A program made the position numbers and the translations under genes. The notes beneath the pieces are model-generated. The model was not told where the DNA came from. It made no database searches and worked only from the letters and a program-made list of their open reading frames with translations. This document shows, in pieces, positions 6,485 to 64,000 of a stretch of DNA of 64,000 bases (positions are counted from its first letter, which is position 1; each line of letters begins with the position of its first letter). Location: NCBI RefSeq assembly GCF_008365315.1, contig NZ_CP043506.1:2407001-2471000 (forward strand), written 5' to 3'. The stretch comes from Acetobacter vaccinii (lineage in GTDB: Bacteria > Pseudomonadota > Alphaproteobacteria > Acetobacterales > Acetobacteraceae).

Positions 6485-7807
6485 TCATTGTCTTTCCGGC
6501 CGTTCCAGGTACAGATTTTCGCGCAATGTCCTGCCTGCATATTCGGTTTTAAACAAACCGCGACGCTGTAACTCGGGAACAACCAAACGGACAAAATCGT
6601 CGATCGCCTCGAATGTCTGGTTCGTCATGATGTTAAAGCCGTCGGCAGCGCCAGCTTTAACCCATTCTTCGAAATCATCAGCAATATCGGTGGGCGAGCC
6701 TACAAGAACCCGATGTCCTCCAGCAGACAGAAGACGTAGCAGTTGGCGCACAGTAGGGCGCTCGCGTTTTATGAGGTCCGCGACCAACTTCTGCCTGCTC
6801 TTGTGACGGTTTGTATCGGGCAGAACCGCAGGAAGAGGAGCCAAATCATCCAAAGAGTATTGTGAAAAATCCACTCCCAAACCAACAAACTCTGAAATAC
6901 TCTTCAAAGCGATGGTATTGTCCGTCAGAGCGTGGAGCTGGTCGAACTTCGCCTCTGCCTCTGTGCGTGTCTCGGCGACCGTCACAGAGACGCCAGGCAT
7001 GATCAGCAAATGATCCGGATTGCGACCGAACTCCCGCTCTGCTTTCTGCCTGATCTCCGTGCGGAAAGCCCTGCCTTCCTCAATGGTTGTGGCCGCCGTG
7101 AAGATCAACTCCCCAATGCGCGCTGCCAGCTTTCGTCCAGCCTCGGATGAGCCTGCCTGTGCAATGACCGGCCATCCCTGAACGGGACGGGGCGCATTGA
7201 GCGGCCCCTTGACCTGAAAATGCTTTCCTCGGTGGTTGAGAAGTTTTACACGCGCGGCGTCAAACCACCGTCCGGACTCCTTGTCCTTAATTGCGGCGTC
7301 GTCGTCCCAACTGTTAAACAGCCCCAATACAACATCAACAAACTCTTCCGCGCGTTCATATCGTGTGGCGTGAAGAACATGATCACTGCGATTGTAGTTC
7401 TCACCTCCTTCAAGGGATGTCACGACATTCCATCCCGCACGTCCTTCACTCAGACGATCCAAGGATTCAAGACGACGCGCGAGGGTGAACGGCTCGTTAT
7501 AGGTTGTATTTGCGGTGCCAACCAAGCCAATCTGGTCTGTGACCACGGAGAGACCTGCCAGAAGAGTCAACGTGTCCCAGCGGGTGGCGGCAGTATTTTT
7601 CTCGATTAAGTCAGGCTCGAAAAGTCCCGAAGAAATCGTATCATTCATGAAGAGAACATCGAACTTTCCATCCTGAAGCCTTGATGCCAACTTGCAGTAA
7701 TATGCGAATGTACCGAGTTCTTCTGTGTCGATGTGTTCATGACGCCAGATTCCTCCGTGTGGCCCGCTGCCATTCAGAAAAGCCCCGAGCTTTATAAAGG
7801 ATGACAT
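6485..7807 (-). CDS. FMN-dependent monooxygenase, NtaA/SnaA/DszA family
   Basis: This 440-residue enzyme belongs to the bacterial luciferase-like (LLM) superfamily. It has the family's N-terminal GGIWRHEHID stretch and the core pattern NEPFTLARRLESLDRLSEGR followed by AGWNVVTS. The substrate-site segment VKGPLNAPRPVQGWPVIAQAG is also present. Relatives use FMNH2 and O2 to cleave nitrilotriacetate, dibenzothiophene sulfone or similar compounds. No reductase gene adjoins it. It lies just ahead of the Dpp-like transporter genes and 131 bases after an SsuA-like binding-protein gene, so it probably acts on what that system imports. The exact substrate cannot be told from sequence. Confidence 0.9.
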   Translation of the reverse strand: MSSFIKLGAFLNGSGPHGGIWRHEHIDTEELGTFAYYCKLASRLQDGKFDVLFMNDTISSGLFEPDLIEKNTAATRWDTLTLLAGLSVVTDQIGLVGTANTTYNEPFTLARRLESLDRLSEGRAGWNVVTSLEGGENYNRSDHVLHATRYERAEEFVDVVLGLFNSWDDDAAIKDKESGRWFDAARVKLLNHRGKHFQVKGPLNAPRPVQGWPVIAQAGSSEAGRKLAARIGELIFTAATTIEEGRAFRTEIRQKAEREFGRNPDHLLIMPGVSVTVAETRTEAEAKFDQLHALTDNTIALKSISEFVGLGVDFSQYSLDDLAPLPAVLPDTNRHKSRQKLVADLIKRERPTVRQLLRLLSAGGHRVLVGSPTDIADDFEEWVKAGAADGFNIMTNQTFEAIDDFVRLVVPELQRRGLFKTEYAGRTLRENLYLERPERQ

Positions 7808-7938
7808 GCAGCCTTTCCCTCTCTAGTAGATTTCTGTTCAGCGTCCCTAGGGCTCCGGCCACGTGACGGTACGCTCTCTACAGAATGTGAAAAAATATTT
7901 TCGATCTCTGCTGTTCGTAGCGGCAATACTTGTCTCTG

Positions 7939-8913
7939 CTACTGAAGCAGTCGGGAAAATCTCAAATCCCACAACGATTCTGCATCAATGCGATTGGGGA
8001 GGCTTCCCTCAGAAAAAAACAGATCCGCAGCCTTCTGCTGTTCCCGGATCATGTCCTGAGTCACTGGCACTAGTTTCACGGCATGCTGCCGACCAGCAGA
8101 AAGTCGTCTAAAAATACGTTCAGGCACCGCTGTCTCCGCTGCCATAATCCTGGACCAGGCTTCCGGGTTAGCTGCGACCCAATCCCAAGTGGCACGCTCC
8201 CTCACAAGATAGTCCTCGATCAGACCGCTTTTGATCCGATCATCCATAGCGCCGACGCGGGCAGAAATCGCGAAAAACGATAATCCCCCCGATGAGATGT
8301 CGCTGGTCAGCCATCTGGCAGCGCTTTCCTCCATCAGCAACTCGGCGACATAATCGTCGGAAATCAGAGCGTCGAGATATCCCCCAACAAAGGCCGCCCG
8401 GCCAGCCGCCGCAGAGAGGGGCACGGGTTGGATATCATCAGGCGTCATCCCGTTGTCGGTCAGTATCTTCAGAAGATAATAATGATGATTGGTAGCCGGA
8501 ACATAGCCGATTTTCTTGTTACGTAGGTCTTTCACAGACGCGGCGGTCGACTTTTCAGGAACAAGCAGCCCAGCATACGAGACCCCTCCTTGTATCGCTG
8601 CGATCAAACGAAACGGACTGGCATTCTGTCCGGCGAAAAGTGCTGGTATTTGGCTCATAAACGCATAGTCCAGCGCCTTGGCCCTATAAGCGTTTAGAAC
8701 CATCTTGCCTCCTTCCACATTGACATAACTGACCGGATAGGAAGGGGACTTCATTTCTGCAGCATTAAAAAAATCGGAGACCTGTCCCTTATAATGCCAG
8801 ACAGCAAGCCCTTCTGGGGTGGCTGCAACTCCAGTCGTGGCCCGAAAAGCCGCGGCTTGCGCAACAAGACCAAAAACGGCAACCCGGCGCGGGATCAGGT
8901 GCCGTCGATTCAT
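7939..8913 (-). CDS. Sulfonate/nitrate-type ABC substrate-binding protein
   Basis: This periplasmic binding protein is of the SsuA/NMT1 type, about 324 residues. It has an N-terminal Arg-rich signal peptide (MNRRHLIPRRVAVFGLVA) and then a two-lobed fold with typical phrases: NVEGGKMVLNAYRAKALDYAF, and later SVKDLRNKKIGYVPATNHHYYLLKIL. Start 8913 overlaps the stop of the aldolase-like gene as ATGA, indicating coupled translation. No matching SsuC/SsuB genes are adjacent; the next genes encode a monooxygenase and a Dpp-type importer. It may feed the SsuBC pair at 33555-35164. The family is clear and the ligand is unknown. Confidence 0.85.
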   Translation of the reverse strand: MNRRHLIPRRVAVFGLVAQAAAFRATTGVAATPEGLAVWHYKGQVSDFFNAAEMKSPSYPVSYVNVEGGKMVLNAYRAKALDYAFMSQIPALFAGQNASPFRLIAAIQGGVSYAGLLVPEKSTAASVKDLRNKKIGYVPATNHHYYLLKILTDNGMTPDDIQPVPLSAAAGRAAFVGGYLDALISDDYVAELLMEESAARWLTSDISSGGLSFFAISARVGAMDDRIKSGLIEDYLVRERATWDWVAANPEAWSRIMAAETAVPERIFRRLSAGRQHAVKLVPVTQDMIREQQKAADLFFSEGSLPNRIDAESLWDLRFSRLLQ

Positions 8914-9722
8914 TCGGTGACATCCCGGTTGTCGTCGGAGATACGATCCCACAATGACAAGAAGGAATAGTGAGCAAAAACATCCTGCCGCGCACGTTGC
9001 TCCGCACTCACGGCTGGTGGGGGCGGCGGGGGTGGCACATCAGCCGCCTGCGCAACGAGTTGGGAACGCGCTGCATCCTCGAATGTCAGAAACCGCCACG
9101 CAGCGACCTCTACGGTAGTACCCACAGTCCACACCCCGTGGTTGAACCAGATCAGGGTATTCTTATTGCCCAGTGCTCCCGCAACAATCTGTCCCTGTTC
9201 GCCGGGCTTGGGCAATGAAGGAATTCGTTCTGCAAACAGTGCTGGATCAAACAGGGCCTGATCCTGATGGAAGAAAGACGCCTCGGCGGTGATCGGCAAG
9301 AGCGGGCGACGGAAAGCAGACCAGGTCCTGCCGAAAAACGCATGTGCATGCGCTATCCCAACCACATCGGGGCGCGCCTTTTGTATCTCATCATGGTAAG
9401 GAACTCCTGATTGGTTGATCAGCTTTGGTCCCTCCACGACCGTCCCGTCTCCCGAAACAAGTGAAAGGTCAGACGCTTTGATCTTACTAAACGGAATCCC
9501 CAAAGGATTCATCCAGAAAAGATCAGGACTAATTGGATCTCTGGCGGAAAAATGCCCTGCGAGTCCATGCTCAAAACCCAGATAGCCAAACACCCGAAGT
9601 GCAATAGCCAGACGCTCCTTCCGGTGTTTCTGCTCCTCTTCTAGGGGACGAGGATCAGGGATACGGAGATCGCTTCCAGCAAGAAAAAGCTCATGATTAA
9701 AAGAAGAAACGTGCTCTGACAT
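8910..9722 (-). CDS. Class II aldolase/adducin-family protein
   Basis: This 270-residue cytoplasmic protein has the class II aldolase/adducin fold. Metal-binding histidines are visible at 125 and 127 (AHAHAFFG) and 195 (NHGVWTVG). The catalytic Glu of fuculose-phosphate aldolases, expected just before the YH at 109-110, is replaced (QSGVPYH). It is therefore of the adducin-like type, and true aldolase chemistry is not assured. It heads a minus-strand unit with an SsuA-like binding protein and an FMN monooxygenase. A second copy with the same features occurs at 51780-52574, again next to a monooxygenase. Confidence 0.85.
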   Translation of the reverse strand: MSEHVSSFNHELFLAGSDLRIPDPRPLEEEQKHRKERLAIALRVFGYLGFEHGLAGHFSARDPISPDLFWMNPLGIPFSKIKASDLSLVSGDGTVVEGPKLINQSGVPYHDEIQKARPDVVGIAHAHAFFGRTWSAFRRPLLPITAEASFFHQDQALFDPALFAERIPSLPKPGEQGQIVAGALGNKNTLIWFNHGVWTVGTTVEVAAWRFLTFEDAARSQLVAQAADVPPPPPPPAVSAEQRARQDVFAHYSFLSLWDRISDDNRDVTE

Positions 9723-31242: not shown

Positions 31243-32418
31243 TTAAGTAGCCGATTTCTCATGAGATGCGGCAAAGGCGGATCTCCCAGCACTTTCCAGA
31301 ACAGCATCCGCTTGTGGCGTATGAATGCGACCGCATAGAACATTACGATAATGTCGCTCCAGAGGGTTGTTCTGGCTAAGGCCGGGGTTGCCCGTGACTT
31401 CTACTGCACGGGTTACAGCAGCTATGGCATTCTCTGTCACCAACCTTTTGACCTGCCCGGCTTCAGCAAGGGTGATCGTCTGATTTTCAGCCTTGCTGAG
31501 AGCCAACTCCAGTAATGCTTCATTGGTTAACAAGAGGCCGTCAATTTCCCCAAGAACCGTTTGAAAACGCGGCAATGTGGACAGGGAGCGTCCTAGAGCC
31601 GTGGGTACACGCTGTTGCAGGAAGTCGGTCAGCCAGTCCCGTGCAGAATGAGCGATTGCGTTATAGAGCGCTGGAATGACGATTGTATGCCATGTTGCCA
31701 AAAGCGGTGTTTCTGGGTTTTTTCCATTTTCATGGAAATTGATCAGATAACGCTCAGGAATTTCGACATTCTCAAAAATAATTGTATCGCTGCCTGTTGC
31801 GCGCATACCAAGGTGGTGCCAGCTTTTTTCGATCCGCACTCCAGGTAAGGACAGAGGGACAAGGATCTGTCCAATACGGGGTGTGTCTTCTTCTGTCGCG
31901 CCCCAGACGACCCCCCAATGTAAAGCAGATGACCCGGTCGAGAAGATTTTGCGACCGGATAAAAAATAACGGTCTCCTTTACGACGTATACGGGTGGCCG
32001 GTATTCCTCCTCGTGCAGGGGTGCCTAGCTCGGGTTCCACCCGCAGAGCATTGAGCAGGGCTCCGGACGTAACGATTGAATCAAGCACCTCATTGCGTAC
32101 GTCGTCGGGCCATGTCTCTGACAGCAGAATGGCAATTGTCTGCAAATACTGCATGGCGAGTATCAGGGCGGTAGAAGGGTCACCTTTTGCCACTTGCGAA
32201 ATGATGGTGGTGATCTGACGAAGAGTAATGCTCTGGCCACCCTGATCCGGGGGTAATGTCAGGCTGAGATAGCCAGCCTTGTGGAGGTCAGCAAGATTGT
32301 CGAAGTTGATTTCACCCAAGCGATCTGATTCCGCAGCCCTGGATGCAAAACGGTTTATCAAGTCTTCAGGAAAATCAAGACTGACAGTAGATTTTTCTGC
32401 CATGAGAGCACCATCCAT
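31243..32418 (-). CDS. Acyl-CoA-dehydrogenase-fold flavoprotein, SfnB/DszC-like
   Basis: This protein of about 391 residues has the acyl-CoA dehydrogenase fold. It has an N-terminal helical domain (NLADLHKAGYLSLTLPPDQG), a middle beta domain (GDRYFLSGRKIFSTGSSALH, and WHHLGMRATGSDTIIFENV) and a C-terminal helical domain ending LERHYRNVLCGRIHTPQADA. The RHYRN-type ending, instead of the usual acyl-CoA site, is like the DszC/SfnB group, whose members use reduced flavin and O2 on sulfur compounds. ATG 32418 has an AAGGA site. It lies 24 bases after an SsuA-like binding-protein gene. A sulfur-compound monooxygenase is likely; a true dehydrogenase is not excluded. Confidence 0.78.
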   Translation of the reverse strand: MDGALMAEKSTVSLDFPEDLINRFASRAAESDRLGEINFDNLADLHKAGYLSLTLPPDQGGQSITLRQITTIISQVAKGDPSTALILAMQYLQTIAILLSETWPDDVRNEVLDSIVTSGALLNALRVEPELGTPARGGIPATRIRRKGDRYFLSGRKIFSTGSSALHWGVVWGATEEDTPRIGQILVPLSLPGVRIEKSWHHLGMRATGSDTIIFENVEIPERYLINFHENGKNPETPLLATWHTIVIPALYNAIAHSARDWLTDFLQQRVPTALGRSLSTLPRFQTVLGEIDGLLLTNEALLELALSKAENQTITLAEAGQVKRLVTENAIAAVTRAVEVTGNPGLSQNNPLERHYRNVLCGRIHTPQADAVLESAGRSAFAASHEKSAT

Positions 32419-32442
32419 AGTCACAATATCCTTATTATGGCT

Positions 32443-51779: not shown

Positions 51780-52574
51780 TCAATCCAGAAGGTCAGGTTC
51801 CTGTGCTACAATCCAATCCCACAAGGGCTGGAAAGAAAAATATCCACCTAGATCCGTGCCCACCTGGGCTGCAGTCTTGCGGGCGATATCGGGTGCGATC
51901 GGTTTGACCGGGCCAGCAGCCTGCGCCAGCAATTGTGCATGGGCAGCGTTATCCATGGTGATGAACCACCATGCTGCGGCTTCCACAGAGTCACCAACAG
52001 TCAGGAGGCCATGATTTTGCAAGATAATGGCCTTGTGACTGCCAAGCGTTTTGGCCAGCCGCTCTCCTTCACTATCGTCCAAAACCACGCCGGAAAAAGG
52101 ATCAAAGACAGAGTGAGATTCGTAAAAAGCGCAGGAATCCTGCGTGAGAGGCAAAAGCGGCGTGCCAAGCGCCGAAAAGGCCTTGCCATAAGTGGAATGT
52201 GTGTGTGCCGCCGCAATAACATCGGGGCGCGCCTTGTGCAGGGCTGAGTGGATTGTAAAGCCAGCGGTATTGATCGGTCGGTTTCCGATCAGGATGTTGC
52301 CGTCATGATCGACCAGTTGGAGGTCTGATGTGCGAATTTGTGAGAAATGTACCCCAAGAGGGTTGATCCAGTATTGTTCAGGAAACTCGGGATCTCGCGC
52401 GGTGACATGCCCCGCCAGACCCTGGTCAAAACCGTAGCGACCAAACAGGCGGAAGGTGGCTGCCAGACGCTGCTTGCGATGCAGCCGCTCTTCTTCATGA
52501 GATGCAGCAGGTTGACGGGGCTCAAGGCGGAAAGAGCGCGCCTTGGGTGCAGTGACTGGGGAGAGGGCGTTCAT
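51780..52574 (-). CDS. Class II aldolase/adducin-family protein (second copy)
   Basis: This protein of about 264 residues has metal-site histidines at 124, 126 (AHTHSTYG) and 188 (QNHGLLTVG). As in the copy at 8910-9722, the catalytic Glu of sugar-phosphate aldolases is missing (NTAGFTIHSAL). The proteins share long stretches such as GLAGHVTARDP/GLAGHFSARDP and INPLGVHFSQI/MNPLGIPFSKI. ATG 52574 is used (AAGGA upstream); 52598 and 52637 are alternatives. It stands between the dehydrogenase and dioxygenase genes of the operon. A lyase or isomerase role on a hydroxy- or keto-acid is possible. Confidence 0.85.
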   Translation of the reverse strand: MNALSPVTAPKARSFRLEPRQPAASHEEERLHRKQRLAATFRLFGRYGFDQGLAGHVTARDPEFPEQYWINPLGVHFSQIRTSDLQLVDHDGNILIGNRPINTAGFTIHSALHKARPDVIAAAHTHSTYGKAFSALGTPLLPLTQDSCAFYESHSVFDPFSGVVLDDSEGERLAKTLGSHKAIILQNHGLLTVGDSVEAAAWWFITMDNAAHAQLLAQAAGPVKPIAPDIARKTAAQVGTDLGGYFSFQPLWDWIVAQEPDLLD

Positions 52575-52614
52575 AGGCGGTGTCCTTGTGTCTGGCATGA
52601 GCCGTAATGGGGGG

Positions 52615-53601
52615 TTAGTAGCCGCGGGCAGGATCAATGGTGTCGATCAGGGGTTTTCCCCCGAGAAAATGGGTCAGGTTGGTGCGGATACGCTGAACGA
52701 GATTGTCTCGTACGGATGGGCCAACCCAACTGATGTGTGGTGTCAGGTGAATGCGAGGGTGGGTATAGAACGGATGCCCCGCAGGGAGGGGTTCAGGTGT
52801 CGTAACATCCAGCGTGGCAAAGGCTGGGCGGCCATTATCAAGCGCCTTCAGCAGGGCATGCTGGTCCACAAGCCCCCCACGTGCGATGTTAATCAGGTGC
52901 AAACCGGGGCGAGCATGCTTCAGAACATCCGCGTTAACGATCTGTTGTGTCTCGCGCGTGAGTGGCATGGCCAGTACGAGATGGTCAGAGGTCTTGAACA
53001 GTTCAGCGAGGGATGACACGGGCTGAATGTTGTTTTCTTCCTCCTCCCATGCTCCTCGGCGGAATGCGCGAATGTTCATGCCAAAGGCGCGTGCCCGCGT
53101 GGCGATAGCGCGGCCGATAGCTCCGTACCCTGCCAGCCCGAGGGTGCGGCCTTGCAGGGTTCCGGTCGAAGGGTTCTGGCGGAAAGGGGCTACAATAGCC
53201 TCCCATTCCTGCGGAGAGCCCGGATGGAGCGCATCAATCTGCCGTTCATGGTTCAGCAGTGCCGCAATAACGTATTCAGCAATCGGGGTTGCGGCATCGC
53301 CCCGGCCACAGGTTACAAGCCGTCCCTCGGTGAGCCATGATGGAAAGCTGTCAATGCCAGCCGAGGCAATTTGCACCCACCGTGGCCCATCCTGCCATTC
53401 TGGTGGTGGAGAGGACGGAGCTTCAGCCCAGGCGCGGGAAGGGGCGGTAAACAGAATATCCGCCCCGTTGATGTGCCATGGCGCTGTTGTGTTGCGATCA
53501 CCTGAGATGACATGTACCTGCTGCGTGTAGTCAGCTAATAGATGGGCGACGGGGCCACCGATCTGGTCAAGCAGCAGGGGGCGGGTAGGGGAGATGCTCA
53601 T
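52615..53601 (-). CDS. D-2-hydroxyacid dehydrogenase
   Basis: This 328-residue NAD(P)-dependent dehydrogenase has the cofactor motif GLAGYGAIGRAI at 155-166. Catalytic Arg241 (NIARGGLVDQ), Glu270 and His289 (LTPHIS) are present. It interconverts a 2-oxoacid and a D-2-hydroxyacid. In this operon the acid is probably a product of organosulfur breakdown, such as a three-carbon keto- or hydroxy-acid (inference). It begins 8 bases downstream of the SsuD-like gene's stop, so they are co-transcribed. Confidence 0.9.
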   Translation of the reverse strand: MSISPTRPLLLDQIGGPVAHLLADYTQQVHVISGDRNTTAPWHINGADILFTAPSRAWAEAPSSPPPEWQDGPRWVQIASAGIDSFPSWLTEGRLVTCGRGDAATPIAEYVIAALLNHERQIDALHPGSPQEWEAIVAPFRQNPSTGTLQGRTLGLAGYGAIGRAIATRARAFGMNIRAFRRGAWEEEENNIQPVSSLAELFKTSDHLVLAMPLTRETQQIVNADVLKHARPGLHLINIARGGLVDQHALLKALDNGRPAFATLDVTTPEPLPAGHPFYTHPRIHLTPHISWVGPSVRDNLVQRIRTNLTHFLGGKPLIDTIDPARGY

Positions 53602-53609
53602 GGCCAGTC

Positions 53610-54701
53610 CTAGGCGGCCTGCGCTGTATGACGGGCATCTTCAGCGGCCACCAACTGACGGACGAGAGGGATCAGATCCCGCCCATAGGTATAGGCATCT
53701 ACCAAGGGGTCAAAGCCACGGATCAGGAAGGTGGAAATACCCAGACGGTAATAGTCGAGCAGTGCTTCGGCCACCTGCTCAGGCGTGCCTACCAGAGAGG
53801 TGGAGTTGCCTTTGGCTCCAGTCAGGGCCGCAATGCCGGTCCAGAGCCGTTTATCAAGGCGACTTCCCTGTGAGGCTGCGGCAAGAAGGCGGCGGGAGCC
53901 TTCGTTGGGAATATCGGAAGACTTGGTAAAGCCTGTTTTTTCCTGAAGTGAACGTGCCGTTGCAAGAATGTGATCTGCACGGGCCCAGGCGGCCTCTTCC
54001 GTGTCGGCCAGTATCGGGCGTAGCGAGAGTGAAAAGCGGGGTGAGCGACCGTGCTTTGCGGCACTAGCACGGACGTGTGCGACGGTCTCGGCGACCTGCT
54101 CATAGGTTTCCCCCCATAGAGCATAAACATCAGCGTGTTTGCCAGCAACGTCGATCGCTTCGGATGAAGAGCCACCAAAATACACAGGTATGCCGCTATC
54201 CCGATAAGGACGTACTAGTGAATTCGCCCCGTGCACATCATAGAACTGCCCCTTGTAGTCAAAGGGAGCCGTCTCGCGCCATTCCTGTCGGATAATATCG
54301 AGATATTCACTGGTGCGGGCATATCGCTCTGCCTTGGTCGTGTGGTCGCCATCAGCCTGAAGCTCTAAATCACTACCGCCAGTGATGATATGAACGGCGA
54401 CACGCCCTTTTGTAATATTATCGAGCGTTGCAAACTGTCGAGCGGCAATGGTTGGTGCATTAAAGCCTGGTCGATGAGCGATTAATAACCCGAGGTCCGG
54501 TGCCACGGCAGCCGCATGCTGTGCGACCAGAATACTCTCTGGAGAGTTGGAGTGGAAAGCCACAAGAGCACGATCAAAGCCACCATTTTCGTGAATTTTT
54601 GCGGCAGTTTCAATGTGCTTTGGATCGACGATCGGCCCCTGGGGGGGGATGATTTCGGATTGATTGTGGCTGCCGATATAGCCGATGAATTCAACAGGCA
54701 T
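53610..54701 (-). CDS. FMN-dependent alkanesulfonate monooxygenase-like enzyme (SsuD type)
   Basis: This protein of about 363 residues of the SsuD branch of the LLM superfamily opens VEFIGYIGSHNQSEIIPPQG. It has the conserved APTIAARQFATLDNITKGRV with AVHIITGG, and GIPVYFGGSSSEAIDVAGKH at the flavin-phosphate site. SsuD enzymes use FMNH2 and O2 to release sulfite from sulfonates, leaving an aldehyde. No SsuE reductase gene is linked. It is the first gene of a five-gene operon and is divergent from a LysR regulator. ATG 54701 (MPVEFIG) is preferred over 54728. Confidence 0.9.
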   Translation of the reverse strand: MPVEFIGYIGSHNQSEIIPPQGPIVDPKHIETAAKIHENGGFDRALVAFHSNSPESILVAQHAAAVAPDLGLLIAHRPGFNAPTIAARQFATLDNITKGRVAVHIITGGSDLELQADGDHTTKAERYARTSEYLDIIRQEWRETAPFDYKGQFYDVHGANSLVRPYRDSGIPVYFGGSSSEAIDVAGKHADVYALWGETYEQVAETVAHVRASAAKHGRSPRFSLSLRPILADTEEAAWARADHILATARSLQEKTGFTKSSDIPNEGSRRLLAAASQGSRLDKRLWTGIAALTGAKGNSTSLVGTPEQVAEALLDYYRLGISTFLIRGFDPLVDAYTYGRDLIPLVRQLVAAEDARHTAQAA

Positions 54702-54728
54702 GACGGGCTCCCCTATAACACTAAACAA

Positions 54729-57861: not shown

Positions 57862-58410
57862 GTGAGTGTGACGAGCGTGGAAGACAGACTCCTGGGTGAG
57901 TATATGGTCCATCGACCGCAATTACATGCGCTCGCGACACGCCTCATGGGTTGTCGCTGGAAAGGCGAGGAGATTGTGCAGGAAGCCTATCTCCGCATGA
58001 CCGCCGACACCGGGGCGCGGGATATTAAACGTCCTTTCCAGTTTTTGTGGAGTGTTGTCTATCGCCTCTCGATTGACGCAATGAGGCGGGAGACGCGAGA
58101 CCCTCTTTCTCTGAGGCGGTCTTTTGCAGCGCCGGAGTGTCATGACGAACTCCATGAAAGAGAAGAAAAGGCGCTGGCTGATATGGTCACGCCAGAACGT
58201 GATGTGGTTGCCCGTGAGCACATGGCGCGTATGTCAGTCGTGTTACAACGGCTTCCTGATCAAACCCGCCGAGCCTTTGAACTGGTTCAGATTCAAGGAT
58301 ATTCTCAAAAAGAAGTGGCGCAGATGCTAAATGTCTCAGCCCCTTACGTTAATAAAATTGTGAAAAATGCGTCTAGAATACTCGACGAGTGCCTTATCGA
58401 CTTTGACTGA
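57862..58410 (+). CDS. ECF sigma factor (FecI type), second system
   Basis: This 182-residue ECF sigma factor starts at a GTG at 57862 behind GGAGG. Region 2 is at about 15-80 (EEIVQEAYLRMTADTGARDI, PFQFLWSVVYRLSIDAMRRE). Region 4 is at about 125-178 (LPDQTRRAFELVQIQGYSQK, EVAQMLNVSAPYVNKIVKNA). A FecR gene follows 108 bases later but no TonB receptor does, so its target receptor must be elsewhere, perhaps one of the receptors in this window. Confidence 0.92.
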   Translation: MSVTSVEDRLLGEYMVHRPQLHALATRLMGCRWKGEEIVQEAYLRMTADTGARDIKRPFQFLWSVVYRLSIDAMRRETRDPLSLRRSFAAPECHDELHEREEKALADMVTPERDVVAREHMARMSVVLQRLPDQTRRAFELVQIQGYSQKEVAQMLNVSAPYVNKIVKNASRILDECLIDFD

Positions 58411-58518
58411 GTGCTTTTGCGGTTCTCTGGCGTGATTGATGGAAATTCGTCTATAAGAAGGAAGAGTGCAGTCGACTGAGCGGCTCACTGCGTTAATCGC
58501 TGTCTATTATGTGAGCCT

Positions 58519-59538
58519 ATGACTGAAACTCGTTCTCCCGATTTGCGTGAGCAGGCGATCTCGTGGCAGCTTTTGCTGAACGATAATCCCCATGACTCTG
58601 GTGTTCGACGTCAGTTGGAGGCGTGGTGTGCCGAATCTCCGCAGCATAGGCAGGCGTGGGAGCGAGCGGAGCGTGTTCGGGCATTTGCCAGATTGGCCAT
58701 TGAGGCGGAACAGGCTGCTCCCCTTTCGTCCAAGTCATTTGAGCAGAAGTCGCCACATACACGTTTCGCAGGAATTCTCAGAAAATATGTGAGTGTTGGT
58801 CTGGTGGGGGGGCTTGCGCTAGCCGGTGCTGCGGTCATGTTCTTTGTCCCGGAGCTGAATGACTGGTGGCTGGCAGATTATTCTACGGGAACAGCAGTTA
58901 ACCGTATGATTACTCTGGCTGATGGGTCTGAGCTTGTGCTTGGTGCAAAGAGTGCCATAGCACTCAGTCATGATCCCCTTGCACGTGGTGTGACTCTTTT
59001 ACATGGTGAGGCTTATTTTAAGGTCGTTCACGATGAGCGACATCCATTCGTCGTGAGAGCTGCATCCTTCACTATCAAAGACATTGGCACGGCTTTTGAT
59101 GTTCGGCGGGTTGGTGGGCACCTGACAGTTGCGGTGCGTGAAGGGCAGGTTGCCGTGAAGGAAAACGGCTCAGCTCAAAGCACAGCAACAGAACTGGGGG
59201 CGGGACAGCAACTGGATGTGGATACGCAAAACCCACAGGGTGCTAGTTTAACGCAGGTTTCTTCTGATACTATTGGGTCATGGCGAACTGGCATACTTTC
59301 AGTCGAGGGTATTCCGATGGGAGACCTTGTGAGTATCATCAAGCGCTATTACCCCGGGTATGTTATGGTTACTGGACCGATCGCTACCCATACCGAAGTT
59401 GGGGGCGTTTACGATCTGAACCATCCTCTGGATGCATTGAAGATGCTTGTGAGCGTACGTCATGGCAGTGTGAGCGAGTATGGTGGGCATATCGCAATGG
59501 TTAGGTTCTCTTCGGAAATGGGTAGGGACAGTCGTTAA
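58519..59538 (+). CDS. FecR-family regulator, second system
   Basis: This 339-residue protein has the DUF4880 N-terminus (REQAISWQLLLNDNPHDSGV, RRQLEAWCAESPQHRQAWER). One transmembrane helix follows (YVSVGLVGGLALAGAAVMFF), then the periplasmic FecR domain (ITLADGSELVLGAKSAIALS, LLHGEAYFKVVHDERHPFVV, IKDIGTAFDVRRVGGHLTVA). It is the anti-sigma/transducer for the upstream sigma factor. Unusually, the next gene encodes a nitronate monooxygenase instead of an STN-domain receptor, and an IS element follows, so the receptor may have been lost or lie elsewhere. Confidence 0.9.
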   Translation: MTETRSPDLREQAISWQLLLNDNPHDSGVRRQLEAWCAESPQHRQAWERAERVRAFARLAIEAEQAAPLSSKSFEQKSPHTRFAGILRKYVSVGLVGGLALAGAAVMFFVPELNDWWLADYSTGTAVNRMITLADGSELVLGAKSAIALSHDPLARGVTLLHGEAYFKVVHDERHPFVVRAASFTIKDIGTAFDVRRVGGHLTVAVREGQVAVKENGSAQSTATELGAGQQLDVDTQNPQGASLTQVSSDTIGSWRTGILSVEGIPMGDLVSIIKRYYPGYVMVTGPIATHTEVGGVYDLNHPLDALKMLVSVRHGSVSEYGGHIAMVRFSSEMGRDSR

Positions 59539-59649
59539 AGCCGTAGGTTTTTCTGTTACGCATAAGAGATGCCGTTTTGAAGATGTTGAGGATTGCGGTT
59601 TATCCTCTTTGATTTCTATCACTGTGGTGTTCAGTAATAGGAGGCCATA

Positions 59650-60753
59650 ATGGCTAAGGCGACGCCTGCCAGTCTGTTCGATCTTTCACTGCCTATTATA
59701 CAAGCGCCTATGGCGGGTGTTTCTACACCGGAGCTTGCGGCAGCAGTTTGCAATGCAGGCGGGCTTGGTTCTCTTGGTCTGGGGGCCTGTAATGCTGCCC
59801 AAGCCAGGTCAATGATTGAGCAAACACAGGGGCTTACAAATAAGCCATTCAACGTCAACGTCTTCTGTCATGCTTCTGGAAAACGCGATATCGGACGTGA
59901 CAAAGCGTGGCTGAAGTATCTCTCTCCGTTCTTCGTGGAGTTAGGGATTGCTACGCCAGAAGCTCTCAACGAAATTTATAAAAGTTTTCTTGAAGATGAA
60001 GGTTTATTTAAAACAATTTTGAGTCTTTCTCCTGCGTATATCAGCTTTCATTTTGGGTTACCTTCAGGAGAGCAATTGGAGGCCTTTCGTCAGGCAGGTA
60101 TTACAACCCTGGCGACAGCAACTAACCTGCAAGAGGCCGCATTAATTGAAGCAGCAGGCATAGACATTATTGTGGCGCAGGGCGTAGAGGCTGGGGGGCA
60201 TAGAGGTCTGTTTGACACAGAAGCTGTTGATGAGTGCCTGAGCACTGCTGTTCTCGTCAGGTTGTTAGTTTCTCAGACAAAGCTGCCCGTTGTCGCTGCC
60301 GGTGGAATCATGGATGGTTATGCTATAAGAGCAGCTCTTGACCTAGGGGCTGTTGCGGCACAATTGGGTACAGCCTTTATTCTGTGCCCGGAATCTGCAG
60401 CGCATGAATATTATCGTAAAGACCTTAAGAGTGAAAAAGCATTTAAGACACGTCTGACATCTGCTCTTTCTGGGCGTCTTGCACGGGGCATAGTTAATCG
60501 TTTTATTCTGGAAAGTGAACGTTCAGGAACGCCGGCTTCTGCCGACTATCCTTTTGCGTATGATGCTGCCAAACAATTGCATGCAGCGGCCATCAAACAA
60601 GGTAATTCAGAGTTTTCTGCCTATTGGGCAGGGCAAGGAGCACCATTAGCACGGGAGCTTCCAGCGGAACGGCTTATTCAAGTATTAGCTGAAGAAATGC
60701 GAAAGGACCTTGCAGCTCCAATAGCCATAACGTCGCAAAGTGATGTAATTTAA
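59650..60753 (+). CDS. Nitronate monooxygenase (2-nitropropane dioxygenase family)
   Basis: This 367-residue FMN enzyme has a TIM-barrel fold opening PIIQAPMAGVSTPELAAAVC with NAGGLGSLG. The catalytic and FMN motif VAQGVEAGGHRG has the active-site His at 184. VVAAGGIMDGYAIRAALDLG and GAVAAQLGTAFILCPES are also present. It detoxifies nitronates such as propionate 3-nitronate by oxidation. It has an AGGAGG site and lies 111 bases after FecR. Its presence beside organosulfur oxygenases may be coincidental. Confidence 0.92.
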   Translation: MAKATPASLFDLSLPIIQAPMAGVSTPELAAAVCNAGGLGSLGLGACNAAQARSMIEQTQGLTNKPFNVNVFCHASGKRDIGRDKAWLKYLSPFFVELGIATPEALNEIYKSFLEDEGLFKTILSLSPAYISFHFGLPSGEQLEAFRQAGITTLATATNLQEAALIEAAGIDIIVAQGVEAGGHRGLFDTEAVDECLSTAVLVRLLVSQTKLPVVAAGGIMDGYAIRAALDLGAVAAQLGTAFILCPESAAHEYYRKDLKSEKAFKTRLTSALSGRLARGIVNRFILESERSGTPASADYPFAYDAAKQLHAAAIKQGNSEFSAYWAGQGAPLARELPAERLIQVLAEEMRKDLAAPIAITSQSDVI

Positions 60754-60972
60754 ATTATAAGTAAGTTTATGATATAATTTTAAAATTCCAAATATACAAT
60801 TTTGGGAAACACGTTTTTTGTTCTTAGAAGGGCTTTTACAATTGTAGAAATGCATTTATTTTTTAATTTATGAAGTTGCATTCAATATTATTGCGATATT
60901 TTTTCTTGTTGTCAAAGTGTCTCAAATGCACGGTTAACTTTCTTTTCAAAGCGTCGTCTATCCCGCAGACGT

Positions 60973-62262
60973 GGAGGGTTCGAAAAACCCTCTGTTTTTG
61001 AAGCTTTCTATGTGATTCCCTTCCTTCGGTTCTGGTTGAGGGAATGGCGCTATGAAACAGCCTGGTTTTTTTGATGTTGAAGAGCGGCTTGCTCGATTGA
61101 GCGGGCTTGGTGATCAGCTCGAAGCGTTTTCCCGGACTGTGGATTTTGAAGTGTTCCGCCCTGATCTGGAGCAGGCTCTGGTCTATTCAGACGGCAGCAA
61201 AGGCGGGCGTCCCCCGTTTGATCCCGTGTTGATGTTCAAAATTCTGGTGATCCAGACGCTGAACAATTTGTCTGATGAGCGGACAGAGTATCTGATCAAC
61301 GATCGCCTGTCCTTCATGCGTTTCCTTGGCCTGGGGCTGTCGGACCGTGTGCCTGATGCCAAAACGGTCTGGCTGTTCCGTGAACGCCTGACCCAGGCGG
61401 GGGCCATTGAAAGACTGTTTGACCGATTTGACGCGACCCTGCGGAACGCGGGCTATCTGCCGATGTCGGGCCAGATCCTGGATGCAACACTGGTAGCCGC
61501 TCCAAAGCAGCGCAATACCAACACTGAGAAAGCCGACCTCCGGGCAGGGCGTATTCCTGAAGACTGGCAGGACAAGCCATCCAAATTGTCCCACAAGGAT
61601 CGCCATGCGCGCTGGACGCTGAAGTTCACAAAAGCAAAGCGGCAGGATGATGGGACGATCCCGTCAACGGATCTTGCCATTCCGTTCTTTGGCTACAAAT
61701 CGCATGTTTCCATCGATCGAAAATTCAGGCTGATCCGCAAATGGAAAACGACGGATGCCGCCGCCAGTGATGGCGCGCGATTGAGAGAGGGGCTGCTGGA
61801 TAAAACCAATACGGCCTCAACTGTGTGGGCCGACACGGCCTATCGCTCGAAAGCAAATGAGGACTTCATGGACAAAGAGGGTTTTGTCTCAAAGGTTCAC
61901 AGAAAAAAGCCGCATCTCAAGCCCATGCCCCGCCATATCCAGCGGTCCAATGCAGGGAAATCGGTGATCCGATCACGCGTCGAGCATGTCTTTGCGGATC
62001 AGAAATCACAGACAGGGTTGTTCGTCCGAACCGTCGGCATCACCCGAGCCACCACGAGGATCGGACTGGCCAATATCGTCTACAACATGCGCCGCTTCAT
62101 CTTCCTGGAACGGATTAGCACTACAGCATAGCAATCCAGAGCAGGAGGCCTTCTCTCTACTCAAAACGCAGAGCGAAAGCGACCCAAAGAACCGTTAATC
62201 AAATCGCCAAAAGCCCAAAATCAGAACCAAGACACATCAACCAACGGTTCTTCGATCCCTCC
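60973..62262 (+). mobile_element. IS5-family insertion sequence, about 1.3 kb
   Basis: The outer ends are imperfect inverted repeats: GGAGGGTTCGAAAAACC at 60973-60989, and on the other strand GGAGGGATCGAAGAACC at 62262-62246. One intact transposase gene lies inside. No matching target duplication flanks the ends (left ...gacgt, right atctc...). The right flank is the interior of a monooxygenase gene whose front half is absent on the left. The element therefore probably made a deletion or is a recombination product, not a simple insertion. Confidence 0.85.
61052..62131 (+). CDS. IS5-family transposase, intact
   Basis: This 359-residue DDE transposase begins MKQPGFFDVEERLARLSGLG. Catalytic residues are Asp144 (QILDATLVAA), Asp261 (VWADTAYRSK) and Glu311 (RSRVEHVFADQKSQ). 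The N-terminal DUF772-type segment is KGGRPPFDPVLMFKILVIQT. Length and motifs are those of the IS5 group, and there is no frameshift or stop, so the element may still be active. The start ATG lies 79 bases inside the left terminal repeat. Confidence 0.93.
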   Translation: MKQPGFFDVEERLARLSGLGDQLEAFSRTVDFEVFRPDLEQALVYSDGSKGGRPPFDPVLMFKILVIQTLNNLSDERTEYLINDRLSFMRFLGLGLSDRVPDAKTVWLFRERLTQAGAIERLFDRFDATLRNAGYLPMSGQILDATLVAAPKQRNTNTEKADLRAGRIPEDWQDKPSKLSHKDRHARWTLKFTKAKRQDDGTIPSTDLAIPFFGYKSHVSIDRKFRLIRKWKTTDAAASDGARLREGLLDKTNTASTVWADTAYRSKANEDFMDKEGFVSKVHRKKPHLKPMPRHIQRSNAGKSVIRSRVEHVFADQKSQTGLFVRTVGITRATTRIGLANIVYNMRRFIFLERISTTA

Positions 62263-62263
62263 A

Positions 62264-62800
62264 TCTCCCGAAGGCTTGGATTTCGTTTCACGTTATGCAG
62301 ATGTTTATGCAGTAACGACCGAACCCTTAGCCGAAACACGTGCCTTACTGGATCAGGTTAAGGCAGCGACCTTGGAGCAGGGACGTAAAGACATTGCTTT
62401 CTGGCGAGATTCCAACTTCATTCTTGCTGCGACTGATGAAGAGGCACAGCAGCGGGCTGAGCGTATAGCAGCTGATATTCGAACAACAACAGGCGGCGTC
62501 GCTGTCCAGACGCAAAGTGTCGGGCAGGCGCGGGCTCTTTCTGCTGTTGATCGGGCAGAATGGCATGACAGAGCGCTTTATACAGGGATCAACCGTGCTG
62601 GTGGCCGCGGGGGGATTCCCTTTGTGGGCTCTCCCAAGACAGCAGCGGACGCTGTGCTTGATTATTATGACCTAGGAATAGAAACCTTTTCCATCGGCGT
62701 TCCCCTTGTGTCTGAAGAGGATGACCGTCTTGCGACGGAGTTGCTGGAACATATCCGCAATGGCGTCAAAGACCGGGCATCAAAACACCACGCCGCGTAA
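62264..62800 (+). pseudogene. SsuD-like FMN monooxygenase, 5' half lost at the IS element
   Basis: The frame is open from the IS end and begins SPEGLDFVSRYADVYAVTTE, which aligns with the middle of SsuD-type enzymes (compare SSEAIDVAGKHADVYALWGE in the SsuD-like protein at 53610-54701). It runs to a normal C-terminus, including PFVGSPKTAADAVLDYYDLG followed by IETFSIGVP. About the first half, including the FMN core, is missing, and no start codon of the gene remains. The lost part is not present to the left of the IS. The desulfinase-like gene follows 45 bases later, so these were probably one operon. Confidence 0.88.
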
Positions 62801-62845
62801 TGGATGAGCATTACTCCCAAATTTCAGATACGAAAGCTTTAAGTC

Positions 62846-63913
62846 ATGACTTCTAAAAATTTATCTTCCCAAGCCCCTGCAAGTGCACGGGTTTTGAACT
62901 ACTCAATCTGCCCTGTATTTGTCGCCTCTCATGTTGCGGTTGAACTGGGCTGGCTTGAGGAGGAACTGGCATCTGTCGGTGCATCAGCACGTTATCTGGG
63001 ATCACTGACAAGAGATGAGCAGAATATCGCCCATCATCAGCATACTCTTCCGTTTCAAATCCGGGATGGCGGTAACATTCCTCCGACATGGTCTCATGCA
63101 AGAGGGGCAGAGAATGTTGTGATTGGTACGACCGGATTTAATTCCGGCGGACAGATTGTTGTTAGAGCGGATTCAGGAATATACACACTTGCAGACCTGG
63201 CCGGGCGCAAGGTTGCTCTTTCTCGCAGCAATGCTGATTATCGCGCTGACTGGTGGCGTGCCAATTCAGAGTTTGGTCTGCTCCTCCTCCTACGTTTGGG
63301 GGGGCTGACATTTGACGATGTGGAACTGATAGAAATCCCCGCGATTGAATCCACAGCCCATCTCCCACCGGTTAGCCGGCTGTCAGAACGTTGGCCACAG
63401 ACAGAACGGGAGAGTCTGGCCTTTAATCTGCCCGAGGTGGTAGCTTTGGGTGATGGTCGCGTTGATGCCATTTTCAGCAATCAAGGACGCTCCGAAATTC
63501 TTGAGAAAACCGGGCAGTTCAAGGTAATTGAAGATCTCCGGCGTTACCCGGATTGGACATTAAACGCACCTTCCGGTCCCTATCTGATTACTGCAAGCCG
63601 AACACTGCTTGACCAGAGCCCTGAAATTGCAATTGCCTTCTTAAAGGCTTCCATTCGGGCGGGGAGGTGGATCGCTGATAATCGTCGAGAAGCAGCGGTT
63701 ATTCTTAACCGCGTTACCTACCAGGCAACTGCCGAAGATGTTTTGAGGGATATAGCTGATATTGATTTTGTACCATCATTATCAGCACAAAATATTGCTA
63801 ACCTGACTTCTCTAAAAGATTTTCTATTTAAACATGAATATATCAAGAATGATTTTGAAATCAGTAGCTGGATTGATGGTCAATTCTTGAAGTCAGCATT
63901 GGACGACCTATAA
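62846..63913 (+). CDS. DszB-like sulfinate desulfinase candidate (binding-protein fold, no signal peptide)
   Basis: This 355-residue protein would be taken for an ABC binding protein by fold (IYTLADLAGRKVALSRSNAD, RVDAIFSNQGRSEIL), but it has no signal peptide. Its opening matches Rhodococcus DszB (2'-hydroxybiphenyl-2-sulfinate desulfinase, recalled from memory). LNYSICPV gives Cys22 for catalytic Cys27, and HHQHTLPFQIRDGGNIPP gives His63, Arg73 and Gly76 for His60, Arg70 and Gly73 with the same His-to-Arg spacing of ten. It likely releases sulfite from a sulfinate in the cytoplasm. It follows a truncated SsuD-like monooxygenase gene. A simple binding protein lacking its signal is the alternative. 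Confidence 0.75.
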   Translation: MTSKNLSSQAPASARVLNYSICPVFVASHVAVELGWLEEELASVGASARYLGSLTRDEQNIAHHQHTLPFQIRDGGNIPPTWSHARGAENVVIGTTGFNSGGQIVVRADSGIYTLADLAGRKVALSRSNADYRADWWRANSEFGLLLLLRLGGLTFDDVELIEIPAIESTAHLPPVSRLSERWPQTERESLAFNLPEVVALGDGRVDAIFSNQGRSEILEKTGQFKVIEDLRRYPDWTLNAPSGPYLITASRTLLDQSPEIAIAFLKASIRAGRWIADNRREAAVILNRVTYQATAEDVLRDIADIDFVPSLSAQNIANLTSLKDFLFKHEYIKNDFEISSWIDGQFLKSALDDL

Positions 63914-63934
63914 AGCGTTTGCTCTATATGCCAA

Positions 63935-63964
63935 AAATCTGGAGGGGGTAACTCCTCCAGATTT
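63935..63964 (+). terminator. Rho-independent terminator after the desulfinase-like gene
   Basis: AAATCTGGAGG and CCTCCAGATTT pair perfectly around a short loop, 22 bases after the stop codon, with a modest T-run. The stem repeats the core (ATCTGGAGG) of the terminator at 23454-23485. Confidence 0.78.
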
Positions 63965-64000
63965 CTTGCACTCATCACCCTGTTTCGCACCGAATGAGCA

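Follow-up and report, generated by a model that had tools for sequence, protein, structure and literature searches.

DszB is the desulfinase of the 4S pathway, in which the residues of interest here are numbered Cys27, His60, Arg70 and Gly73; according to passages in the same source, it is a slow enzyme whose activity is limited by product inhibition (PMC12168087). In the computed mechanism, as given in part of a further study, the proton of Cys27 replaces the sulfinate in an aromatic substitution, while His60 withdraws charge from the cysteine and so lowers the barrier, and Gly73 bonds the sulfinate (PMC6100217). Here, a window of 64,000 nucleotides from Acetobacter vaccinii (contig NZ_CP043506.1) was analysed, in which the gene at 62846-63913 codes for a DszB-like protein of 355 amino acid residues. 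Judged from sequence and a predicted structure, its product is probably a cytoplasmic DszB-type C-S desulfinase that would convert a sulfinate to sulfite, of a subfamily distinct from DszB. A first-pass annotation of the window had proposed a desulfinase as well, and this interpretation was partly supported.

Reading frame and active-site residues

The gene and the codons of the four residues that align with those of DszB are the following.

62846-63913, forward strand: gene of the DszB-like protein, 355 amino acids, NMT1/THI5-like, with a periplasmic-binding-protein fold
62909-62911, forward strand: codon of Cys22, aligned with DszB Cys27
63032-63034, forward strand: codon of His63, aligned with DszB His60
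63062-63064, forward strand: codon of Arg73, aligned with DszB Arg70
63071-63073, forward strand: codon of Gly76, aligned with DszB Gly73

The open reading frame (ORF), its coordinates, the four residues and an RxGGxIPP stretch were all found as the first-pass annotation had described them. The stretch reads R-D-G-G-N-I-P-P and contains Gly75-Gly76 and Pro79. To follow the conservation of these positions, the query was aligned with the 120 relatives listed of 182 matches (121 rows in all); the relatives had been gathered by shared 5-letter words, a method that favours conserved stretches. His63, Arg73, Gly75, Gly76 and Pro79 were each present in 121/121 sequences and Cys22 in all 119 rows without a gap, two of the 121 being gapped. 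P0122, an annotated DszB encoded in the dsz operon of plasmid pMyong1, has identical residue letters, and so does a paralog encoded in the same genome as the query. The four substrate-binding proteins (SBPs) of the window that have signal-like N-termini do not carry the residue set.

A tree set was composed of 48 DszB-like rows and 14 SBP-type controls. Among the DszB-like rows, the cysteine was retained in 47, the histidine in 43, the arginine in 48, Gly75 in 45, Gly76 in 48 and Pro79 in 44. All six positions were intact in 29/29 rows of the query's own clade and in 6/6 additional DszB-like proteins from named records, and the set occurred in 0/14 controls. The protein thus has the Cys, His, Arg and Gly at the DszB-aligned positions that mark the DszB-type superfamily. 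On the Burkholderia cenocepacia replicon NZ_CP091013.1 (locus L019), one copy at about 7224-8309 has Ser and Ile replacing Cys and His and looks catalytically dead or repurposed; two neighbouring copies retain Cys and His. An Asp takes the place of the His in one Sphingobium copy.

The codon 5' of the ATG at 62846 is GTC and is preceded by the stop codon TAA (62840-62842). With this stop and no start codon in between, a longer N-terminus of the protein is impossible, and a signal peptide hidden behind a longer start was ruled out by the stop two codons 5' of the ATG. No export signal was visible in the sequence by reading either, as the first-pass annotation had stated, which places the protein with the cytoplasmic proteins and not with the SsuA type. 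The relatives have, by reading, short polar leaders ahead of the Cys motif. For 12-residue stretches N-terminal to this motif, the top 15 hydropathy values were 0.79-1.6, leaders that were too short giving no value.

Fold, profiles and phylogeny

Structure prediction gave a periplasmic-binding-protein (NMT1-like) fold with DszB as the best structural match. Among solved structures, DszB (PDB 2de2, 2de3, 2de4) is the nearest relative in sequence, in profile and in fold, with SsuA behind, in agreement with the first-pass placement of the protein within the DszB-type superfamily.

The protein matched the Pfam family NMT1/THI5-like with 29.7 bits (cut-off 20.5) and the NCBIfam model SsuA_fam (TIGR01728) with 64.5 bits, well short of the cut-off of 163.5; failing this cut-off is a weak test alone, since the annotated DszB P0122 scores the same (65.4). 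The NCBIfam scan reported a desulfinase model for neither of the two. Since their SsuA_fam scores are alike, the library names cannot split a desulfinase from a binding protein, and this accounts for the usual annotation as a transporter part. The source names of the relatives among the matches listed do read ABC (ATP-binding cassette) or nitrate transporter substrate-binding or periplasmic component, as the first-pass annotation had remarked for such proteins in general.

In the tree, the DszB-like proteins including DszB were split from the SBP-type controls with a Shimodaira-Hasegawa-like approximate likelihood ratio test (SH-aLRT) support of 99. The query's clade of 29 rows also had a support of 99, with DszB outside, although DszB forms a long branch (2.55) and its exact placement is unsure. 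The query and P0122 share 28% identity. The protein is therefore neither in the DszB clade nor of the high identity of a DszB orthologue.

Proposed reaction

By analogy, Cys22, His63, Arg73 and Gly76 would act like their DszB counterparts on some sulfinate. An organic sulfinate would bind in the cleft of the periplasmic-binding-protein fold, where Arg73 and Gly76 may help to position it. Cys22, tuned by His63, would then protonate the sulfur-bearing carbon, leading to the breakage of the C-S bond, and the sulfite would be released and assimilated. The computed DszB route depends on an sp2 carbon, which would make a sulfinate of the aryl or vinyl type the more natural substrate. The substrate is probably not 2'-hydroxybiphenyl-2-sulfinate, as the subfamily is separate from DszB. 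A different substrate is also indicated by the longer segment between Cys and His (41 residues in the query versus 33 in DszB) and by near-invariant clade residues without a counterpart in the annotated DszB, which include Gly102, Arg138 and Trp237.

The IS5 element and the truncated monooxygenase gene

Two features lie 5' of the DszB-like gene.

60971-62263, forward strand: IS5-family insertion sequence (IS) element of 1,293 bp, transposase at 61052-62131, truncating the monooxygenase gene
62264-62800, forward strand: 3' remnant of a luciferase-like (SsuD-like) flavin monooxygenase gene, matching residues 193-372 of P0123

The remnant follows the IS5 element directly, has an ORF of 174 amino acids (222 codons from stop to stop) and ends 45 bp ahead of the DszB-like gene. 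Its intact relative P0123 (372 amino acids) showed 99% identity over 80% of the 222-residue query. A comparison of P0123 with the genome matched its residues 193-372 to the remnant at 98%, while all other places gave relatives of no more than 39% identity. As residues 1-192 have no close match, the 5' half of the monooxygenase gene is gone from the assembly; a search with a relative of 37% identity detected it neither 5' of the IS5 element nor flanking the two further copies of the element in the genome. These copies are identical to the one in the window, so the insertion is recent. No target-site duplication was evident at the flanks by inspection. All plasmid matches of the element (58/58 records) came from acetic acid bacteria: Acetobacter 30, Gluconobacter 14, Komagataeibacter 11, Kozakia 2 and Neokomagataea 1. 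This supports the acetic acid bacterium that the first-pass annotation had assumed as host.

The original gene pair would have consisted of the DszB-like gene and a luciferase-like flavin monooxygenase gene supplying the sulfinate, and the recent IS5 insertion in the window strain would have accompanied the loss of the monooxygenase 5' half. On plasmids, P0123 is matched most closely by a protein of Rhizobium sp. ACO-34A (49.9%). There is an overlap of 4 nt between the gene of this protein and a DszB-like gene, although the product of the latter has only 28% identity to the window protein. Together with the window remnant, the pairing of a monooxygenase with a DszB-like gene was thus found at least twice. 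The first-pass annotation had placed the gene next to monooxygenases on a 4S-like route. A luciferase-like gene does adjoin, but as a truncated fragment, and the nearest intact one (53610-54728) is about 8 kb away. The 4S-like route in the window organism is only partly supported, since a dszABC operon is missing and the adjacent monooxygenase is truncated. The order is IS5, monooxygenase remnant, DszB-like gene and, by reading, an Hsp70-like ORF on the other strand, and not dszA-dszB-dszC.

The gene in the window strain may have been separated from its promoter and its partner. In this case it would be a silenced relic, an intact enzyme from which the IS5 element took both, which is compatible with a desulfinase. 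The identity of the three IS5 copies, the best match of only 39% for monooxygenase residues 1-192 and a promoter scan of 60863-64000, which listed no forward promoter-like site between the element and the gene or elsewhere in this region (weak evidence), point in this direction. However, the ORF is intact with all clade-invariant catalytic residues and 16 other luciferase-domain places in the genome could feed the enzyme. IS elements can also supply outward promoters. We consider a silenced relic somewhat unlikely.

Loci of the clade and genomic distribution

Nine loci of the query's clade were readable, the window, L005, L006, L007, L017, L069, L070, L077 and L082; the assignment of the last two rests on score (35-37% identity) and not on the tree. 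Gene labels were given by comparison with labelled window and locus proteins, and those bearing on the argument were checked with Pfam. The contigs are unequal in length (9.6 kb for L082, 13 kb for L077), so that absences are weak. An SsuABC-like set of SBP, permease and ATPase genes surrounds the DszB-like gene at three of the nine loci (L005, L007, L069), and ABC genes of other types are near it at L006, L070 and L077. In the three SsuABC-like operons, the SBP is separate from the DszB-like protein and has a signal-like hydrophobic N-terminus, which makes the DszB-like protein an unlikely receptor and is the strongest argument against such a role. A rhodanese-type gene within 4 kb was found at 4/9 loci (L006, L017, L070, L082), which would fit sulfite as the product. 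On the Opitutaceae contig JACSRI010000122.1 (L005:8314-15528), six tandem DszB-like genes stand between the permease and ATPase genes. At L082:1897-8359, the clade relative is located 3' of thiamine pyrophosphate-enzyme, aldehyde dehydrogenase and rhodanese genes.

No permease or ATPase genes were recognised around the window gene, either in 57862-63913 or over a further 13 kb downstream. At the edge of the region covered, some 12 kb downstream, there is an ORF that by reading codes for a MetQ-like SBP.

The genome contains a second DszB-like gene (L021; genome coordinates 2116376-2117380) of another subclade, with 30% identity to the window protein, near a luciferase-like monooxygenase gene and a class II aldolase gene on the other strand. 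Of 49 genomes of the genus, 7 (that of the window among them) had a match with an E value of 1e-10 or lower. In the wider samples, where each count includes the genome on which the search was centred, matches were obtained in 3/299 genomes of the family at 1e-15, in 1/398 of the phylum at 1e-40 (the window's own) and in 2/392, 1/223 and 2/369 genomes of further samples at 1e-50.

The region 6485-54728 of the window is a large organosulfur-scavenging island. Five luciferase-like monooxygenases are encoded there by intact genes, along with the four NMT1-type SBPs that have signal-like N-termini, one pair of permease and ATPase, two TonB receptors, an SfnB/DszC-like protein, a rhodanese-type protein and two class II aldolases. 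The DszC-like gene of the acyl-CoA-dehydrogenase fold (31243-32424) is 30 kb from the DszB-like gene, and its product scored 116 bits for SfnB, 104 for 3-sulfinopropanoyl-CoA desulfinase and 63 for DszC, all below cut-off. A DszB orthologue with a 4S operon was ruled out for this genome, the DszC-like gene being distant and scoring higher for SfnB than for DszC. Class II aldolase genes (in the window 8910-9722 and 51780-52637) recur near luciferase-like monooxygenase and paralog-type DszB-like genes at L018, L021, L023 and L080. The last record (CAKLQF020000010.1) was deposited as 'Acinetobacter phage MD-2021a', has fimbrial and organosulfur genes and looks like a bacterial chromosome.

Alternative functions

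Several observations weigh against a desulfinase. To our knowledge, no activity is known for any member of the query's clade. The Cys-to-His spacing differs from that of DszB by the amount given above. A luciferase-like gene was present within about 10 kb at only 4/9 clade loci (window remnant, L005, L006, L069), and the window's own is broken. At two of the nine loci, on a Rhizobium plasmid (L017:5427-10855) and a Verrucomicrobiales contig (L007:15212-17873), the clade genes are accompanied by 2-hydroxyacyl-CoA dehydratase genes of the 2-hydroxyglutaryl-CoA-dehydratase type and acyl-CoA dehydratase activase/BadF-type ATPase genes, which no 4S-like scheme explains. The hydropathy of the first 45 residues did not separate five relatives (1.73-2.11) from the SBPs (1.77-2.23); this overlap is due to the hydrophobic nature of the conserved Cys stretch. 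For DszB itself, parts of one study report that Arg70 raised the barrier in the computations, leaving the role of the arginine unsettled, and cite an older proposal in which Cys27 attacks the sulfur as a nucleophile (PMC6100217).

In three genomes of the same genus (L025, L026, L027), DszB-like relatives of another subclade have Glu at the His position and Ala at the first Gly (Gly75). At L025:8185-12866, the DszB-like gene lies between an amidohydrolase gene and genes of the major facilitator superfamily and of the DszC-like type; Pfam and NCBIfam were run for this group on L025 only. These substitutions and the amidohydrolase neighbour suggest that the superfamily also does other chemistry. 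The window protein could then be a cytoplasmic enzyme that has this fold but catalyses a different reaction, such as a decarboxylation or another C-X protonolysis, its Cys/His/Arg pocket being shared by descent from the DszB superfamily. We regard this as unlikely, though it is the more serious of the two alternative functions.

A binding protein, as a cytoplasmic or membrane-attached component of an ABC importer or as a sensor for sulfonates or sulfinates, would agree with the NMT1 and SsuA_fam matches, the names of the relatives and the location of several of them within SsuABC-like operons, but is very improbable because a signal extension is impossible, the SsuA_fam score equals that of the annotated DszB, the operons have their own SBP and the invariant Cys/His/Arg set is missing in 14/14 SBP-type controls. 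A plain SsuA-type binding protein was ruled out on the signal, tree, profile and operon evidence.

Significance

No account of the query's clade was found in the open-access literature on DszB and desulfinases, as judged from the titles and abstract openings listed by full-text searches. We tentatively propose, at less than even confidence, that an unnamed DszB-type branch in Pseudomonadota and Verrucomicrobiota, sometimes in tandem, may perform a general sulfite release from diverse cytoplasmic sulfinates, made by flavin monooxygenases or imported by ABC transporters, and that its members are misfiled as transporter parts. If so, DszB-type sulfite release would be a wider sulfur-scavenging step beyond the operon of fossil-fuel desulfurisation, and renaming would be due for a group of proteins that at present pass as transporter components. 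Work on desulfinases would also gain new starting points, which matter because DszB is slow and product-inhibited. The cluster-mates of the clade genes would offer testable substrate classes.

Comparison with known systems

The sulfonate binding proteins SsuA and TauA share the periplasmic-binding-protein fold and the weak SsuA_fam match, but the window protein differs from them by the missing signal peptide, the missing permease/ATPase partner and the presence of the catalytic set. BdsA of the benzothiophene operon bdsABC of Gordonia terrae, compared here by its description in part of one report, is an actinobacterial DszB analogue; its desulfinase gene is likewise beside flavin monooxygenase genes, with the three genes in one operon (PMC3868597). 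The Acinetobacter gene of L080 (annotated soxB, beside class II aldolase and luciferase-like monooxygenase genes) and the paralog L021 have the same active-site letters and a sulfur-scavenging neighbourhood; the L080 protein shows 28% identity to the window protein and stands outside the tree, and the paralog belongs to a different subclade. DszB differs from the window protein by the low identity (28% for P0122), the separate clade, a Cys-His segment that is 8 residues longer in the query and the dszA/dszC operon. In conclusion, it is the 2'-hydroxybiphenyl-2-sulfinate desulfinase DszB that the window protein resembles in its fold, as best structural and sequence match, in the Cys/His/Arg/Gly set and, by reading, in having no signal peptide.
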